Shown one piece after another: positions 6,169 through 12,348 of a DNA stretch of 64,000 nt (the first letter of the stretch is position 1; each line of letters starts with the position of its first letter). A program made the translations under genes and the position numbers. Origin of the DNA: Candidatus Gastranaerophilales bacterium (lineage in GTDB: Bacteria > Cyanobacteriota > Vampirovibrionia > Gastranaerophilales > Gastranaerophilaceae). Below the pieces are notes generated by a model. It searched no databases, was not told the origin of the DNA, and saw nothing but the letters and a program-made list of their open reading frames with translations. The DNA lies in NCBI GenBank assembly GCA_944324485.1, contig CALUWM010000001.1, positions 1-64,000 on the forward strand, in the 5' to 3' direction.

Positions 6169-6339
6169 ATGAAACTACAAATTACAGATAATTTTGATCA
6201 AAAACTTGCAGAACTTTATTCTTCTAAAGTTACTGTTAACCTAGAAGCTAAATCAACACTTGATCCTAATCAATTTTGGAATTCAATGGAATTAATTGCA
6301 GTCAACCATAAAGCTATGATTAATTTTAAAATAAGATAA
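6169..6339 (+). CDS. Small protein of 56 residues, function unknown
   Basis: An ORF from ATG 6169 to TAA 6337-6339, with AAAGGA at 6155-6160 as ribosome binding site. The product begins MKLQITDNFDQKLAELYSSK and ends with INFKIR. It has no signal peptide and no recognised domain. Support for it being real: a good RBS, a clean intrinsic terminator 22 bp after the stop, and an upstream 22-bp element shared with another small gene. It is encoded opposite to both neighbours. The fold could be a short alpha/beta unit; no function is claimed. Confidence 0.6.
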   Translation: MKLQITDNFDQKLAELYSSKVTVNLEAKSTLDPNQFWNSMELIAVNHKAMINFKIR

Positions 6340-6360
6340 ATATTTGGCGGAATTGGAGTA

Positions 6361-6388
6361 AACCCTTCTTTTAAAAGAAGGGTTTTTT
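6361..6388 (+). terminator. Rho-independent terminator after the small ORF
   Basis: An almost perfect hairpin, AACCCTTCTTTT paired with AAAAGAAGGGTT, followed by a T-run (TTTTTT). On the minus strand it also ends in A/T-rich sequence, so it may act bidirectionally and terminate the minus-strand operon ending at 6392, which is 4 bp away. Confidence 0.85.
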
Positions 6389-6391
6389 AGT

Positions 6392-8059
6392 TTATAAATT
6401 TTTCAATTTGTTTAGAAATATATATTTTTCAAATAAATTTTTATTTTTCAAATTCACATAAAACACAGAAAAATATTCATCATTTTCTATCGAAATTCCA
6501 CAATACTCATTTTTAATTTCAGTATCAACAATAGAATCTATTGTTGCCAGTATTTTAGTGTTTTTATTTAAAATAAACATTCTGTTTGATTGGTTTTTAT
6601 TTTTTAATATTATTGGAATTTTTTTTGAATTTTCAAAAAAATAATCACAAATAACACCCTTACCAGAGGCTAAAATTGTATCAAAAACTTCCTTCTTTGA
6701 TAGCCCAATATCATTCAAAGAATAAGGATCAATAATATAATTTATGCTAAAAACCTTAAAAGTATCTTGGTTTATATAATTTAAAACCATTTCATCTTTA
6801 TCTAAAAACTCTTTTGTTTTTAAAATTTTCTTTTCAAGCAATTTGATATTTTGATTGTGCAGATATATTTTTATGTAATTTTTATCTAAATATACAATGT
6901 TATTTTCTTTTAAAATTTTTTTTATAGTTTTTATTTCTCTTTTCTTAGCAAGAATCACAAGTTTATTTTTATCATTTTCAAAATATATTTCATTCTTTGA
7001 TATTTTGGGAATTTCTTGACCTATAAAATAAATTATATTCTTACTTTTAATTAATTCATCTATTTTCTTACTAAATTCAAATGTTTTATAAATATTTGAA
7101 TTATTATCAAGGAAAATCTCTATTTTTCCCAATTCAGATGTATTTATTATGTCAAAATCTACATTGTAAGAATTTTTACTTAGTTCTCTGGCAAGCTTTT
7201 TTAACTTATAGTTGTATATAAAATTTAAACAGCATCTCTTTTTAGATATTGCAAAAATTTGAGCTTTCTTATCATCAAAATTTATCGCATAATCAAAAGG
7301 CTCTTTTATTTTTTGTTCAATATTAAACACCTGCGATAATTTTATTGAAAATTTTTTTCCTTTAAAATAAATTGCTATATTTCCGACATCAAAAACGCTT
7401 TTTATACTATCGTCTGTATTTATTAGAAAAAAATTTTTATCGTTGTTTTTCCTAAAAGAATTTTCAATCGAATTATTATTTTTAATTATATTTTTTATAT
7501 CTGATAAATTTATATTATAAGTTAATAATGTATTATCATCAAAATTAATATAAACTGCTTTTTTCAATTCCCCCAGTTTCAGTATTTTAGATGTTATTTT
7601 AAGATTGTTTAACCTATCTAAAATCTCTTCTGAATAATTATTAAAAAAATCATTATCTAAACTTTGTGTACTTATTACTAAAAAAGTATCATATTTCTTA
7701 TTATACATATCATCAAATTCGATATTATTCGGATATAATATCTCGTCTTTATTAAAAAGAATTTTTCTTTGTACTTTTTCTATAACTTGTTTTTTATTTA
7801 TTACAAAAGGATTTATTTTGCAGTATACGCTGCAAGTATTTTCTTTTGAAAAAAGAACAACTTTATTAATTTCTTTAAGTTCAATTAGCCTGTCTTTTAT
7901 TTTTTCTGCAAAATTATTATTTATATCCTCAACGGAAACATTTTCAAATTCAGCTTTTATTCTTATTTCAAAATTATTTCTATTGTTAAAAACAATTATA
8001 AATACAAATAAAAATATAAAAAATATACCCGATATAAATATAAAAATATTTTTTTTCAT
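6392..8059 (-). CDS. RND-efflux porter-domain-like protein lacking the transmembrane bundles
   Basis: 555 residues. One N-terminal membrane anchor (residues 5-24) is followed only by soluble sequence. Order and motifs match the periplasmic part of RND pumps. Residues 38-82 resemble the first porter subdomain (the V-S-V-E-D-I ... I-N-K-V-V-L pattern). Residues 166-190 resemble the E-R-A-I-x-I-x-x-D ... Y-x-L-x-L-S-D-V stretch. Residues 226-275 match the V-x-L-x-D-V-A ... I-x-K pattern. Residues 440-535 repeat this for the C-terminal half (IDPYSLNDIGLSKKEVFDTI, then ILATIDSIVD). A full pump has about 1,000-1,050 residues and 12 TM helices; here TM2-6 and TM8-12 are absent, with no frameshift debris. 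It overlaps the adaptor gene by 4 nt. Possible non-transporting envelope protein. The homology is inferred by eye. Confidence 0.6.
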   Translation of the reverse strand: MKKNIFIFISGIFFIFLFVFIIVFNNRNNFEIRIKAEFENVSVEDINNNFAEKIKDRLIELKEINKVVLFSKENTCSVYCKINPFVINKKQVIEKVQRKILFNKDEILYPNNIEFDDMYNKKYDTFLVISTQSLDNDFFNNYSEEILDRLNNLKITSKILKLGELKKAVYINFDDNTLLTYNINLSDIKNIIKNNNSIENSFRKNNDKNFFLINTDDSIKSVFDVGNIAIYFKGKKFSIKLSQVFNIEQKIKEPFDYAINFDDKKAQIFAISKKRCCLNFIYNYKLKKLARELSKNSYNVDFDIINTSELGKIEIFLDNNSNIYKTFEFSKKIDELIKSKNIIYFIGQEIPKISKNEIYFENDKNKLVILAKKREIKTIKKILKENNIVYLDKNYIKIYLHNQNIKLLEKKILKTKEFLDKDEMVLNYINQDTFKVFSINYIIDPYSLNDIGLSKKEVFDTILASGKGVICDYFFENSKKIPIILKNKNQSNRMFILNKNTKILATIDSIVDTEIKNEYCGISIENDEYFSVFYVNLKNKNLFEKYIFLNKLKNL

Positions 8060-9120
8060 TTTAAATATTCAATTTTAACCCTAGTATCGGGCTTAATTTT
8101 CTCAAGTCCGTTTGCAACTACAAAATCACTTTTATTTAACCCTTTTAAAATTTCTATTTCATTTTCCAAAATATCCCCGGTTTCAACTTTTTCCTTTTTA
8201 ATTTCGCCTATGCCATCTTTGATATTTATAAGCTTATATACATATTTATTATTTTCAAATTCAAAAACGCTATTCAAAGGAACCAATGTAATAGCATCAT
8301 TATTAAGAGGTATAAGAGCATCTATTCCCATACCATCTTTTAATTGTGGTTTAATATTATCAAGTTCAATCTTTACTAAATAGCCACCTGCGTTAATACT
8401 TGATTTCGATATATGCTTAATTTTGCCTTGATATTTTTCATTATTATATTCAACAACCACAATCTTATTAACATCAACCTTGTTGATTGTATCCGAATCA
8501 ACCATGACTTCAACTTGCGTTTTATTTGTTCCGATTATAGTTAAAATCTTTTCTCCGACTTTTGCAAATGCACCAACTTGTGCATATTTTTCAAATATAT
8601 ATCCATCATAAGGAGCAGTTATCATATTATAGCCAATTTCCTTATCAAGATAGTTTAATTTTTCTTTCTGTATTTTAATATTTTCTGCCGTAGTTTTTAA
8701 ATTAAAATAAGCTTCTTCCCAATCATTATCAGAAATTGCACCTTCATTGTGCAAAATATCCATTCGCTTAAAATAACTTTTTGCTTTATTGTATTGAATT
8801 TGGTTCTCTTTAAGCCTTGCTTGTTCTTCATTTCTTTTAATTTTATACAAAATTCCATCCAACCTCGCAAGGACTTGTCCCTTTCTTACATAATCACCTT
8901 TAGAATATGGAATATAGTTTATTCTTCCTTCGCTTTGAAAACTTAAATCAGTTGTAAATTGAGATATAACAATACCATGAAATTTTTTATTATTTTCATT
9001 TTTAACCGCCACAGCTTGAATAGTGAATAATGGTTTTTGTGCTTTTATATCGCTAAATGACGCCAATACGCCTACTATAATAAAAAATAAAATTAAAAAA
9101 ATTATCTTCTTTGAATTCAT
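8056..9120 (-). CDS. RND/HlyD-type periplasmic adaptor (membrane fusion protein)
   Basis: 354 residues with an N-terminal membrane segment (residues 5-22). The lipoyl/biotinyl half motifs are clear: GRINYIPYSKGDYVRKGQVLARLD and, after a helical hairpin (residues about 75-145), ITAPYDGYIFEKYAQVGAFAKVG. A beta-barrel segment (VEVMVDSDTINKVD) and a membrane-proximal domain (KYVYKLINIKDG ... EIEILKGLNKSDFVV) follow. This is the standard order for adaptors that link an inner-membrane pump to an outer-membrane channel. Its stop overlaps the start of the RND-like gene by 4 nt, so the two are translationally coupled. No TolC-type channel is present here. Confidence 0.88.
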   Translation of the reverse strand: MNSKKIIFLILFFIIVGVLASFSDIKAQKPLFTIQAVAVKNENNKKFHGIVISQFTTDLSFQSEGRINYIPYSKGDYVRKGQVLARLDGILYKIKRNEEQARLKENQIQYNKAKSYFKRMDILHNEGAISDNDWEEAYFNLKTTAENIKIQKEKLNYLDKEIGYNMITAPYDGYIFEKYAQVGAFAKVGEKILTIIGTNKTQVEVMVDSDTINKVDVNKIVVVEYNNEKYQGKIKHISKSSINAGGYLVKIELDNIKPQLKDGMGIDALIPLNNDAITLVPLNSVFEFENNKYVYKLINIKDGIGEIKKEKVETGDILENEIEILKGLNKSDFVVANGLEKIKPDTRVKIEYLK

Positions 9121-9167
9121 TTTTAAATTTTATTTTTTATATATTAAAATTTTAAGGGTAAAAAAGA

Positions 9168-10121
9168 TTAATCCAATGTTCTTTTTAGAATTAAGCCATT
9201 TGTACTAATTGGAAAATCTGTCTTTGTTTTTGAAATAAGCATAGTCTTGTCACTGAGTAAATCATATCCCCATGCTCCCATAAAAAGTTTTTTACCATCT
9301 TTATCATATACATAACAAAGACAAATAATTACATTATCATTATCCAAACTAAAGCCCAAGGGCATTATATCATACCGATATTTAATTAATTGCTTATTTT
9401 CATAATCAAGATAATAATCTTTAATTACTTTATCAAAATTTACAAGTTTTATTGTATAACTATCTTCAATATTTTCCTCTATAAAATGAACATACAGATA
9501 TGTTTTATAAATACCGTTTAAAGTTGATCCTACTTTCTCTTTTATCAAAAGTTTTTTACCGTCTTTGCTCCAATCAACAAGAGTTAACCCTTTAAATAAA
9601 TTTTTATATCTTTCTTTCATGCCAGCTTGAACAACAGGGAGTCTTTCTGCCTGACTATGATTATAATCAAGTATTCTTTTAACTCTTGGCTTTGATAAAT
9701 CTAATTTTTCAACAAAAAACTCAGATGATATTTGATTAACTTCAGGATAAAAATAATATCTGGGATATGCAACATACTTGCAACTACTATCTACTACAAC
9801 ATATGGATAAGAATAGAGATTCTTTTTTACATCCTCAATATTTATTTCTCTTTTTCCCGGAAGATAATTATATTTATCGAAAACATATCTTAATTCCGGA
9901 TAATAAAATTTCTTATCACTTTTAGGTTCTTCTTTTATTTCAACTTTTCTTTCACTTAAAGGTACATCAGCCGCTTCAATTAGCCACTCTTGCTTTGTTT
10001 CAACCATTTTGGCTTTTGGTTCGGGCTGTTTTTTCTTAAAAAATTTAATTTTTTTAAATTCAAACGCATTTGCTGGATTTATTATTAAAAAAAGCACAAA
10101 AACAATTAAAACTTTTTTCAT
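9168..10121 (-). CDS. Exported protein of unknown function in the RND-like operon
   Basis: 317 residues with a signal peptide (MKKVLIVFVLFLIINPANA). After a basic, proline-rich stretch (residues 20-70) come repeated beta-strand segments such as YPYVVVDSSCKYVAYPRYYF, LTLVDWSKDGKKLLIKEK and LGFSLDNDNVIICLCYVYDKDG. The spacing and the W/F-S-x-D-G/N-x-x-x-I/L pattern recall TolB/WD40-like propeller blades, but only two or three are visible. It starts 5 bp after the response regulator stop, so it is very probably in the same operon and may be a periplasmic sensor or partner of the adaptor. I do not recognise a named family. Confidence 0.6.
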   Translation of the reverse strand: MKKVLIVFVLFLIINPANAFEFKKIKFFKKKQPEPKAKMVETKQEWLIEAADVPLSERKVEIKEEPKSDKKFYYPELRYVFDKYNYLPGKREINIEDVKKNLYSYPYVVVDSSCKYVAYPRYYFYPEVNQISSEFFVEKLDLSKPRVKRILDYNHSQAERLPVVQAGMKERYKNLFKGLTLVDWSKDGKKLLIKEKVGSTLNGIYKTYLYVHFIEENIEDSYTIKLVNFDKVIKDYYLDYENKQLIKYRYDIMPLGFSLDNDNVIICLCYVYDKDGKKLFMGAWGYDLLSDKTMLISKTKTDFPISTNGLILKRTLD

Positions 10122-10126
10122 AATAA

Positions 10127-10810
10127 TTAAACTAAGCCCTCTTTTAAAGCAACAATAGCAGCTTTTGTTCTATCTGTTAAATATAATTTTTGAAGAATAT
10201 TATGAACATGAGCTTTTGTTGTTGAAATTGAAACAACCAACTTTTGAGATATTTCTTGGTTTGAAAGCCCATCTACAATCAAAGAAAGAACTTCTAATTC
10301 TTTTTTTGTAAGCCCATATTTTTTATTAGCCTCTTTTTGATTTTTTATACTTGTAGTTTGATTGTCTTCTTCGTTTTGAATATTTGACAACACGACTCTT
10401 GCAATTTGAGAATCGATCCAAGCGGCATGCTCAGAAACCGTATCGATAGCATTTATTAAATTTTGCGAACTTGAATCTTTCATGATATATCCATCAGCAC
10501 CCGCTTTAAAAGCTGCAAATATGTCTTCCTTGCTATCTCTTGATGTAAACATTAAGATGGCGCTATCTAATTTTAATTCTTCTTTAATTTTTCTTGTTGC
10601 AGTAATACCATCCATTTTTGGTAATCCAATATCCATCAAAATTACATCCGGATTATATTTTTGAGCCATAGAAACGGCTTCTATACCATCAACCGCCTCT
10701 GCTAAAAGTTTAAAATGTGGCGTATTTTCAATTTTCATAGAAAGACCCATTCTTGTAAATTCATGGTCTTCAACCAATAATATTGTTATTTCTTTTTTTT
10801 CTTTTTTCAT
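10127..10810 (-). CDS. NarL/FixJ-type response regulator
   Basis: 227 residues. The receiver domain spans residues 8-125 with the acidic pocket VEDHE, phosphoacceptor Asp60 (VILMDIGLPKMDG), Thr in MFTSRD and Lys in YIMKDSS. A LuxR-type helix-turn-helix follows at 165-227 (LTKKELEVLSLIVDGLSNQEISQKL ... HNILQKL). The start codon overlaps the kinase stop (ATGA). It is expected to be phosphorylated by the upstream hybrid kinase and to control transcription, plausibly of its own operon with the exported protein, adaptor and RND-like protein. Confidence 0.93.
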   Translation of the reverse strand: MKKEKKEITILLVEDHEFTRMGLSMKIENTPHFKLLAEAVDGIEAVSMAQKYNPDVILMDIGLPKMDGITATRKIKEELKLDSAILMFTSRDSKEDIFAAFKAGADGYIMKDSSSQNLINAIDTVSEHAAWIDSQIARVVLSNIQNEEDNQTTSIKNQKEANKKYGLTKKELEVLSLIVDGLSNQEISQKLVVSISTTKAHVHNILQKLYLTDRTKAAIVALKEGLV

Positions 10811-12348
10811 AAAATTACCTTACAGTCATTAATTGAGTTTTTCAATTCAAAAGTGAACTTTGAACCTTTATTCAGTTCTGATTCGACATATATCTTTCCA
10901 TTGTGGGCTTCTATTATCTGTCTTGACAAATATAACCCGAGACCGGTAGAGCTGGAGCGCTTTTGATTTGTACCTTGTGAAAAACGATTAAACAACTTTT
11001 CGCAATCACCTTTTTCAAAACCAATACCATCATCTATTACATCAACTTTTAAATCGTGTTCTTGTTTTTCTAAATTTATTAACACTTTTGTCCCTTTTTG
11101 AGAATGTTTTATAGCATTTCCCGCCAAATTAATCAATACTCTTCTAATTTCATTTTTATCAGCATTAACAAATATTTCACTATTATTATTTTCAATTTTA
11201 ATTTCCATATTTGCTTTCTTAGCTAAAGGAGACAGCTCAGATTTACACTCTTGTGCTAACTTTAAAATATCAAACTTTGTTTTACACAGATAAGTTTTTC
11301 CTGCTTCATATCTATAAACTTCAAGAAGAGTGTTCACAAGTCCCAACATATCCTCTGAGCTTTTTTTCATCGCAGAAAACAAACTAAACTGCTTTTCATT
11401 TATTTCACCCAATGATTTATCAAGAATAAAATCCAATCCGGAAATCGTTGCAAGCAAAGGAGTTCTTAAATCATGCGTGAGCGTAGCTATAAAATCATCT
11501 CTTAAGCGTTCGTTTTCTTTTTGATATGTTACATCCCTTATAACTGCAACATAAAAATTATTTTTTTGGTTAAAAACAGGAGCTATGCTAATTTCAACAG
11601 GAATTTTTATATCTTTTTTATAATTAATCAAACAATAATTTCTTAAAAAAACGTTTTCTTTATTGTTTAAATTAGTTTTTGAATATTTTTCATTTACGAC
11701 AAGTTCAAAAAAATTTTTTGAAATCACTTCTTTCTTTTCTTGTCCAAAAAGATTTAAAGCAGCATCATTTAAATCTATAATGTTGGAATTAAAGTCAAAA
11801 GTTACTATTCCATCGGCACAACCAGTGATTATTGCGTTTAATTTTGAATTAACATCAGACAATTCTTCTGTTCTTTTTTCTACTATGTCTTCAAGATTTT
11901 TTGAATATTCTTCAAGCTTTTTATTTGCATTTTCAAGCTCAATTATTTTCTTATCTAATTCTTTTTTAAGTTTTGTCTGAATAAGAGCATTTTTTACATT
12001 CATTATTAATTGCTTGTTATCCCAAGGTTTTTCTATATATTTAAAAATACCTATGGTATTTATTGCTTTTATCGCATTTTCTTTATCGGCATATCCTGTT
12101 AGTAAAATCATTGAAACTTTTTCCTGATATCTTTTTGCAATTTCAAGAAAATCAATTCCGTTCATCTCGGGCATTATAAAATCACTGATTATTAAATCGA
12201 CTTCATTTTTTTCTAAAAATTTTAATGCTTCTTTAGGATTGTTATATGTTTCAACGTTACTAAAACCCTCTAGGCCTAAAAGCATACTAAGAGTTTTGGT
12301 TACCATGGATTCATCGTCAACTATTAGAATTTTCCCCATTTTGTCCAT
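10807..12348 (-). CDS. Hybrid sensor histidine kinase (REC-coil-PAS-HisKA-HATPase)
   Basis: 513 residues with no membrane segment, so cytoplasmic. Domains in order: an N-terminal receiver (residues 5-125, phosphoacceptor Asp56 in LIISDFIMPEMNG), a coiled linker (125-165), a PAS domain (165-275, ending in VAVIRDVTYQKE), HisKA with His292 (ATLTHDLRTPLL), and a HATPase domain with an N box (INLAGNAIKHS), DDGIGFE and GLGLYLSRQI. Having the receiver at the N terminus suggests input from another kinase. The next gene is its probable target. It is divergent from the gene at 12495, with 146 bp between them. No strong Shine-Dalgarno precedes either possible ATG (MDKM or MGKI). Confidence 0.9.
   Translation of the reverse strand: MDKMGKILIVDDESMVTKTLSMLLGLEGFSNVETYNNPKEALKFLEKNEVDLIISDFIMPEMNGIDFLEIAKRYQEKVSMILLTGYADKENAIKAINTIGIFKYIEKPWDNKQLIMNVKNALIQTKLKKELDKKIIELENANKKLEEYSKNLEDIVEKRTEELSDVNSKLNAIITGCADGIVTFDFNSNIIDLNDAALNLFGQEKKEVISKNFFELVVNEKYSKTNLNNKENVFLRNYCLINYKKDIKIPVEISIAPVFNQKNNFYVAVIRDVTYQKENERLRDDFIATLTHDLRTPLLATISGLDFILDKSLGEINEKQFSLFSAMKKSSEDMLGLVNTLLEVYRYEAGKTYLCKTKFDILKLAQECKSELSPLAKKANMEIKIENNNSEIFVNADKNEIRRVLINLAGNAIKHSQKGTKVLINLEKQEHDLKVDVIDDGIGFEKGDCEKLFNRFSQGTNQKRSSSTGLGLYLSRQIIEAHNGKIYVESELNKGSKFTFELKNSINDCKVIL

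Follow-up and report, generated by a model that had tools for sequence, protein, structure and literature searches.

RND proteins without a membrane domain in gut Gastranaerophilales: candidate docking scaffolds for an adaptor

RND pumps are, to our knowledge, regarded as inseparable from their proton-driven membrane domain. AcrBper, an engineered soluble protein, fuses the two periplasmic loops of AcrB (PDB 5EN5 series); it folds, trimerises and binds doxycycline, fusidic acid and levofloxacin (PMC8617272). A porter-like periplasmic core fold is also present in the MacB-type ABC transporters, which belong to a TolC-linked tripartite machine (PMC8277102), and the RLS motif at the tip of the adaptor binds TolC in both AcrA and MacA (PMC3391258). 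The literature searched, with most subscription journals outside its scope, describes no natural RND pump devoid of its transmembrane (TM) bundle.

The locus presented here encodes such a protein, RNDp, an RND efflux pump cut down to its TM1 anchor and both periplasmic loops. A comparison with relatives from the same order makes it probable that RND pumps have repeatedly been turned into engine-free adaptor scaffolds. They would form a natural TM-less class with at least two origins in gut Gastranaerophilales, in which selection has moved from the substrate-handling porter to the funnel that docks adaptor and TolC.

The operon and the anatomy of RNDp

The window, the whole stretch of 64,000 nucleotides that was analysed, comes from a Candidatus Gastranaerophilales metagenome-assembled genome of 1.72 Mb in 59 contigs. 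Its minus strand carries a tight five-gene operon that runs from 12348 to 6392 in the order kinase, regulator, exported protein, adaptor and RNDp, with 4-nt overlaps at two junctions, kinase/regulator and adaptor/RNDp. The features of the locus are the following.

10807..12348, minus strand: soluble hybrid kinase, REC-PAS-HisKA-HATPase by domain matches, no TM
10127..10810, minus strand: NarL-type response regulator, Response_reg and GerE
9168..10121, minus strand: exported protein of 317 aa, operon member, no Pfam or NCBIfam family matched
8056..9120, minus strand: RND-type periplasmic adaptor (MFP), 354 aa, overlapping RNDp by 4 nt; TIGR01730 at 193 bits, orthologues beside RND genes
8731..8766, minus strand: RLS motif RMDILHNEGAIS at the adaptor hairpin tip, residues 119-130, TolC-binding pattern R-x3-L-x6-S
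6392..8059, minus strand: RNDp, TM-less RND protein of 555 aa with an ATG start; ACR_tran match, 25-member family, halves homologous to both RND periplasmic loops
7985..8056, minus strand: TM1 anchor of RNDp, residues about 2-25, a single hydrophobic segment that aligns with TM1 of full pumps
7139..7978, minus strand: N-terminal periplasmic loop of RNDp (PN1, PN2, docking DN), residues 28-307, by profile and structure matches
6452..7138, minus strand: C-terminal periplasmic loop of RNDp (PC1, PC2, docking DC), residues 308-536, by alignment with full pumps and a CmeB match

A sequence-only reading had already described the RNDp frame, its 4-nt overlap with the adaptor and the exported protein, regulator and kinase upstream, all as found here. 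On the plus strand, a small ORF of about 55 aa (6170-6340) stops just 5' of a strong terminator-like hairpin at 6360-6385, which separates it from the convergent end of the RND gene.

Residues 28-273 of RNDp match Pfam ACR_tran (PF00873) at 5.4e-11, better than the gathering cut-off. Aligned with the full pumps of its lineage, the protein passes from TM1 through the first periplasmic loop directly into the second; the columns of TM2-TM7, before the C-terminal loop, and of TM8-TM12, after it, are empty, and both junctions coincide with loop borders. Profile-profile comparison (hhalign) with a full pump of a sister genus, g52, places the halves in the correct order, the N-terminal half on residues 47-311 (E = 2.6e-31) and the C-terminal half on residues 550-806 (E = 1.9e-12). 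In a profile search of the PDB with the RNDp family, MexK is the best solved match, over the first loop (8e-12), and a match to CmeB (5e-6) covers PC2 and, in the second loop, the docking part. AlphaFold models of RNDp, alone or with two orthologues, are poor globally (pLDDT 40-41), so that the Foldseek matches rest on local pieces; the AcrBper entries rank at the top with TM-scores near 0.18, taken as local support only. Model quality is highest in residues 28-118, and this stretch superposes on the PN1 subdomain in AcrB and CusA (chain about 39-132) at ~2 Å over 90 residues, with Z about 11-12. The anatomy is thus read from sequence profiles and the local PN1 match, not from the global models.

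Hydropathy gives a single TM segment near residues 5-23, in agreement with the sequence-only reading, which had allotted the protein one helix and none of the other 11. That reading had also seen a soluble porter-like RND sequence, and profile-profile comparison traces both halves to RND. It had proposed that a structure search be made and would have given way to the lack of any RND porter match; the matches found, to MexK, CmeB and AcrB-type proteins, are RND. Its S-D-V/A-I pattern repeated in both halves does not show up as a significant internal repeat: in profile-profile comparison each half matches its own loop, with cross-matches at chance.

An RND permease is defined by twelve TM helices in two bundles, and a single TM is present in all 25 members from the genus, and likewise in the members from genus g42 described below. 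The proton-relay residues of TM4 and TM10 are absent along with those helices. Proton-driven transport by RNDp alone is therefore excluded by anatomy, since TM2-TM12 are missing. The protein is RND by descent, but judged by the membrane features that define RND transporters it is not one of them.

The adaptor scores 193.1 bits against TIGR01730 (RND_mfp), for which the curated cut-off is 94.9. It had been called HlyD-type from the sequence; it is indeed an adaptor, of the RND type and not HlyD proper, because this cut-off is passed. An orthologous adaptor adjoins every TM-less or full RND of the lineage, and the R-x3-L-x6-S pattern is intact in 29 of the 29 checked adaptors linked to a TM-less RND. 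The source genome encodes several OEP/TolC-type proteins. An N-terminal lipobox marks most adaptor orthologues as predicted lipoproteins. The lipobox cysteine is lost in the window adaptor (8056-9120, minus strand) and in its two nearest relatives (L035 and L036), and these three are predicted to be held by an uncleaved N-terminal helix.

Conservation, ancestry and repeated loss of the membrane domain

RNDp is found in 25 of the 28 genomes of the genus, as proteins of 408-558 aa with 26-68% identity to the window copy. Synteny shows the same five-gene order in all 25, and hydropathy finds one N-terminal TM in each of the 24 orthologues. The frames are open in 25 of 25 members, and no disrupted alleles were seen within species. 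Pairwise dN/dS ranges from 0.07 to 0.28, values that are approximate because dS is mostly near 1, though well below 1. The protein's rate of evolution is above that of its own adaptor and far above that of the kinase; the response regulator keeps 75-96% identity within the genus. In two of the three genomes without RNDp (G005 and G012) the kinase, regulator and exported protein are kept and adaptor and RNDp are lost together, while in the third (G014) the contig stops just behind the exported protein. RNDp is thus a conserved gene under purifying selection, not a fragment or a pseudogene, and the intact frames and dN/dS bear out the earlier view of an intact ORF. The search for orthologues in the same gene order, a check that had been suggested with it, gave the 25 loci above.

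Across the genus these proteins form a natural deletion series of 408-558 aa. The shortest orthologue, of only 408 aa (L057:745-1971), has lost nearly all of PC1 and keeps both docking halves. The exported protein is present in 113 of the 117 genomes of the taxonomic family; at nearly all loci read, the counterparts of the window copy (9168-10121, minus strand) are preceded by the same kinase and regulator, and elsewhere their open frames reach about 580 aa.

Sister genera carry a full pump of about 990-1020 aa beside the orthologous adaptor. These full orthologues match MexK and TriC best (1e-143) and keep GILVDN in TM4. In genus g52, after the kinase, regulator and exported protein come ~3.7 kb of other genes, then the orthologous adaptor with a complete pump (1008-1020 aa); in g53, g55 and g42, adaptor and complete pump lie elsewhere in the genome. 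Among the other genera of the family with loci read, most have the kinase, regulator and exported protein without an adjoining adaptor or RND. The intervening genes of the g52 loci (L090, L091, L092, L169 and L170) are in mixed orientation, and the ~3.7-kb spacing points either to an insertion in g52 or to a closing-up in the genus of the window. The ancestor of RNDp was a complete MexK/TriC-like RND pump, from which the proton-driven TM domain was deleted. The sequence-only reading would have yielded to a neighbouring genome in which the protein was a frameshifted fragment of a full pump. Full pumps do stand beside orthologous adaptors in sister genera, but the short form is conserved and not frameshifted.

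Genus g42 has both forms, a complete pump in three genomes and a TM-less protein of 506-573 aa in five, one copy being cut short at 553 aa by a contig end. At four of the five TM-less loci the upstream genes share 50-61% identity with their counterparts in the complete-pump species; downstream, the gene for a sulfate permease is 66% identical where compared. Because these flanking genes match, the two forms occupy the same locus. In the adaptor tree, the adaptors of TM-less and full RNDs from g42 form one clade (100/100) apart from the genus of the window, and a topology with one TM-less clade is rejected (p-AU 0.003). The tree of the RND proteins joins both TM-less groups (91/98), each on a long branch, and does not reject a constraint that keeps g42 as one group (p-AU 0.28). 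The joining is probably due to long-branch attraction. Since the adaptor tree rejects one TM-less clade and the RND tree allows g42 to stay together, two losses, so that the TM-less form would have arisen at least twice, are the better reading. Transfer of the RND gene alone between genera is the less likely alternative. A single origin, as the RND tree would have it, was rejected as contradicted by the adaptor tree and by gene order.

One g42 protein is very divergent (G175, L207:9318-10838, 506 aa), with about 25% identity to the other TM-less proteins of that genus. This fifth case groups weakly with one complete-pump species (85/88), and it might represent a third independent loss. No further TM-less RND was found among 382 genomes of the class, in which short frames matching both halves occur only in genera g1 and g42.

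Shift of constraint and the role of RNDp

A comparison of porter and docking regions, with borders transferred from AcrB via alignments, separates the two forms. In full pumps, porter columns are alike to 0.487 versus 0.347 for docking (funnel) columns, while TM-less proteins show the reverse, 0.330 in the porter versus 0.368 in the docking region. The ratio of docking/porter ratios, TM-less versus full, is 1.57 (column bootstrap 1.36-1.83). When pairs below 80% are matched by overall identity, docking/porter is 1.10-1.19 in TM-less and 0.70-0.98 in full proteins, and the difference is gone in pairs above 80% identity. In the shortest TM-less members, shrinkage has mainly taken PC1 and PC2a, and DN and the DC/PC2b stretch remain 83-100% filled. 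Relaxed constraint in the porter might by itself account for this shift of conservation.

Because the docking region is the better conserved one in TM-less proteins and the RLS motif is intact in the linked adaptors, we infer, with a slight lean over the even chance, that RNDp does not pump and serves as a periplasmic docking scaffold for a conduit of adaptor and TolC. Counted towards this reading are the clean loss of TM2-7 and TM8-12, the full-pump ancestry, the dN/dS values, the joint inheritance and loss of adaptor and RNDp, the repeated origin, the several OEP/TolC-type proteins of the genome and the precedent of AcrBper. RNDp would sit in the inner membrane by TM1 and assemble through its porter and funnel domains, probably as a trimer, to seat and hold the adaptor ring. 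The RLS tips of the adaptor may then dock to one of the TolC-type outer-membrane channels of the genome, and RNDp would hold, cap or organise the resulting conduit, or bind ligands at its base, with no translocation of its own. The sequence-only reading had likewise seen an adaptor with an intact, non-transporting partner derived from a porter, and anatomy and conservation agree with it. Of the roles it offered, sensor, regulator or scaffold, the last fits best, and the other two are weakened by the g42 pair, which lies away from the two-component system.

MdtB and MdtC form mixed trimers, and RNDp might likewise be one subunit of a hybrid machine in which a complete RND pump or an ABC- or MFS-type transporter gives the energy and the assembly transports. 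This would be consistent with the PF00873 search of the order, in which no searched genome lacked a match and most of the matches listed were full pumps, with the presence in the source genome of a full pump that has an adaptor and OMF to itself, and with continued purifying selection on the porter parts. That pump, the sole full RND pump of the source genome, is however of a distant subfamily (RND_permease_1/HAE1) unmatched by the RNDp profile, SecD, with SecF adjoining, is the one further PF00873 match, and no transporter gene goes with the adaptor-RNDp pair in both genera; a hybrid machine is unlikely. A split pump with its membrane halves encoded elsewhere was considered separately and rejected. 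PF00873 in the source genome comprises one full pump, RNDp and SecD only, and because the remaining match is SecD, no separate RND membrane half is visible.

PC1 is part of the binding pocket of AcrB. A role for RNDp as a periplasmic ligand binder or sink, whose porter pocket takes up hydrophobic compounds for passive exit or hand-over, would account for the retention of both loops in most members and has a parallel in the drug binding of the engineered AcrBper trimer without a membrane part (PMC8617272). It is hard to square with a porter constraint that fell relative to the docking constraint and with a 408-aa member that has almost no PC1, and it is distinctly unlikely. The shared operon, the same in every RNDp-carrying genome of the genus, and the g52 full pump about 4 kb below the same kinase genes would suit a periplasmic sensor or regulator of the adjoining kinase-regulator pair. 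The kinase, however, is soluble, REC-PAS-HisKA-HATPase without a TM, most genera keep kinase, regulator and exported protein with no adaptor or RND adjoining, and the loss in G005 and G012 is confined to the adaptor-RND pair. Since the g42 TM-less pair stands apart, the tie to the kinase operon does not hold generally, and a sensor role is therefore disfavoured, to the point of being very improbable. As for a decaying pump relic devoid of function, fast evolution relative to kinase and adaptor and the shortening of some members are what decay would produce, but frames open in 25 of 25, dN/dS of 0.07-0.28, persistence down to about 26% identity, at least two separate origins and loss jointly with the adaptor leave it scarcely credible.

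Comparison with known systems

The docking-scaffold reading would make RNDp a natural separation of docking from pumping. It opens the questions of what job is left to an adaptor-TolC conduit that has no motor and of which RND surfaces are needed for assembly alone. It also advises caution, as an annotation of "RND efflux" need not mean a pump.

A comparison of the pair with described machines shows both its kinship and its departures. The window adaptor shares the curated score and the RLS motif with RND-type adaptors (TIGR01730; AcrA, MexA and TriA type), but its encoded partner is not a transporter and its clade has lost the lipobox. MacB has TM helices and an ATPase, whereas RNDp lacks both the TM bundle and an ATPase, and its sequence is that of an RND protein. 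RNDp resembles the MexK/TriC-type permeases (HAE-RND, PF00873) in having both periplasmic loops in order, TM1 and an adjoining adaptor gene, and differs from them in lacking TM2-TM12, and hence the proton relay and any substrate path through the membrane domain. Like AcrBper, it joins two RND periplasmic loops without a membrane domain. AcrBper is man-made and soluble, while RNDp is natural, anchored by TM1, fast-evolving and accompanied by an adaptor; on the reading of two losses, evolution would have produced AcrBper-like proteins at least twice and retained them with their adaptor.
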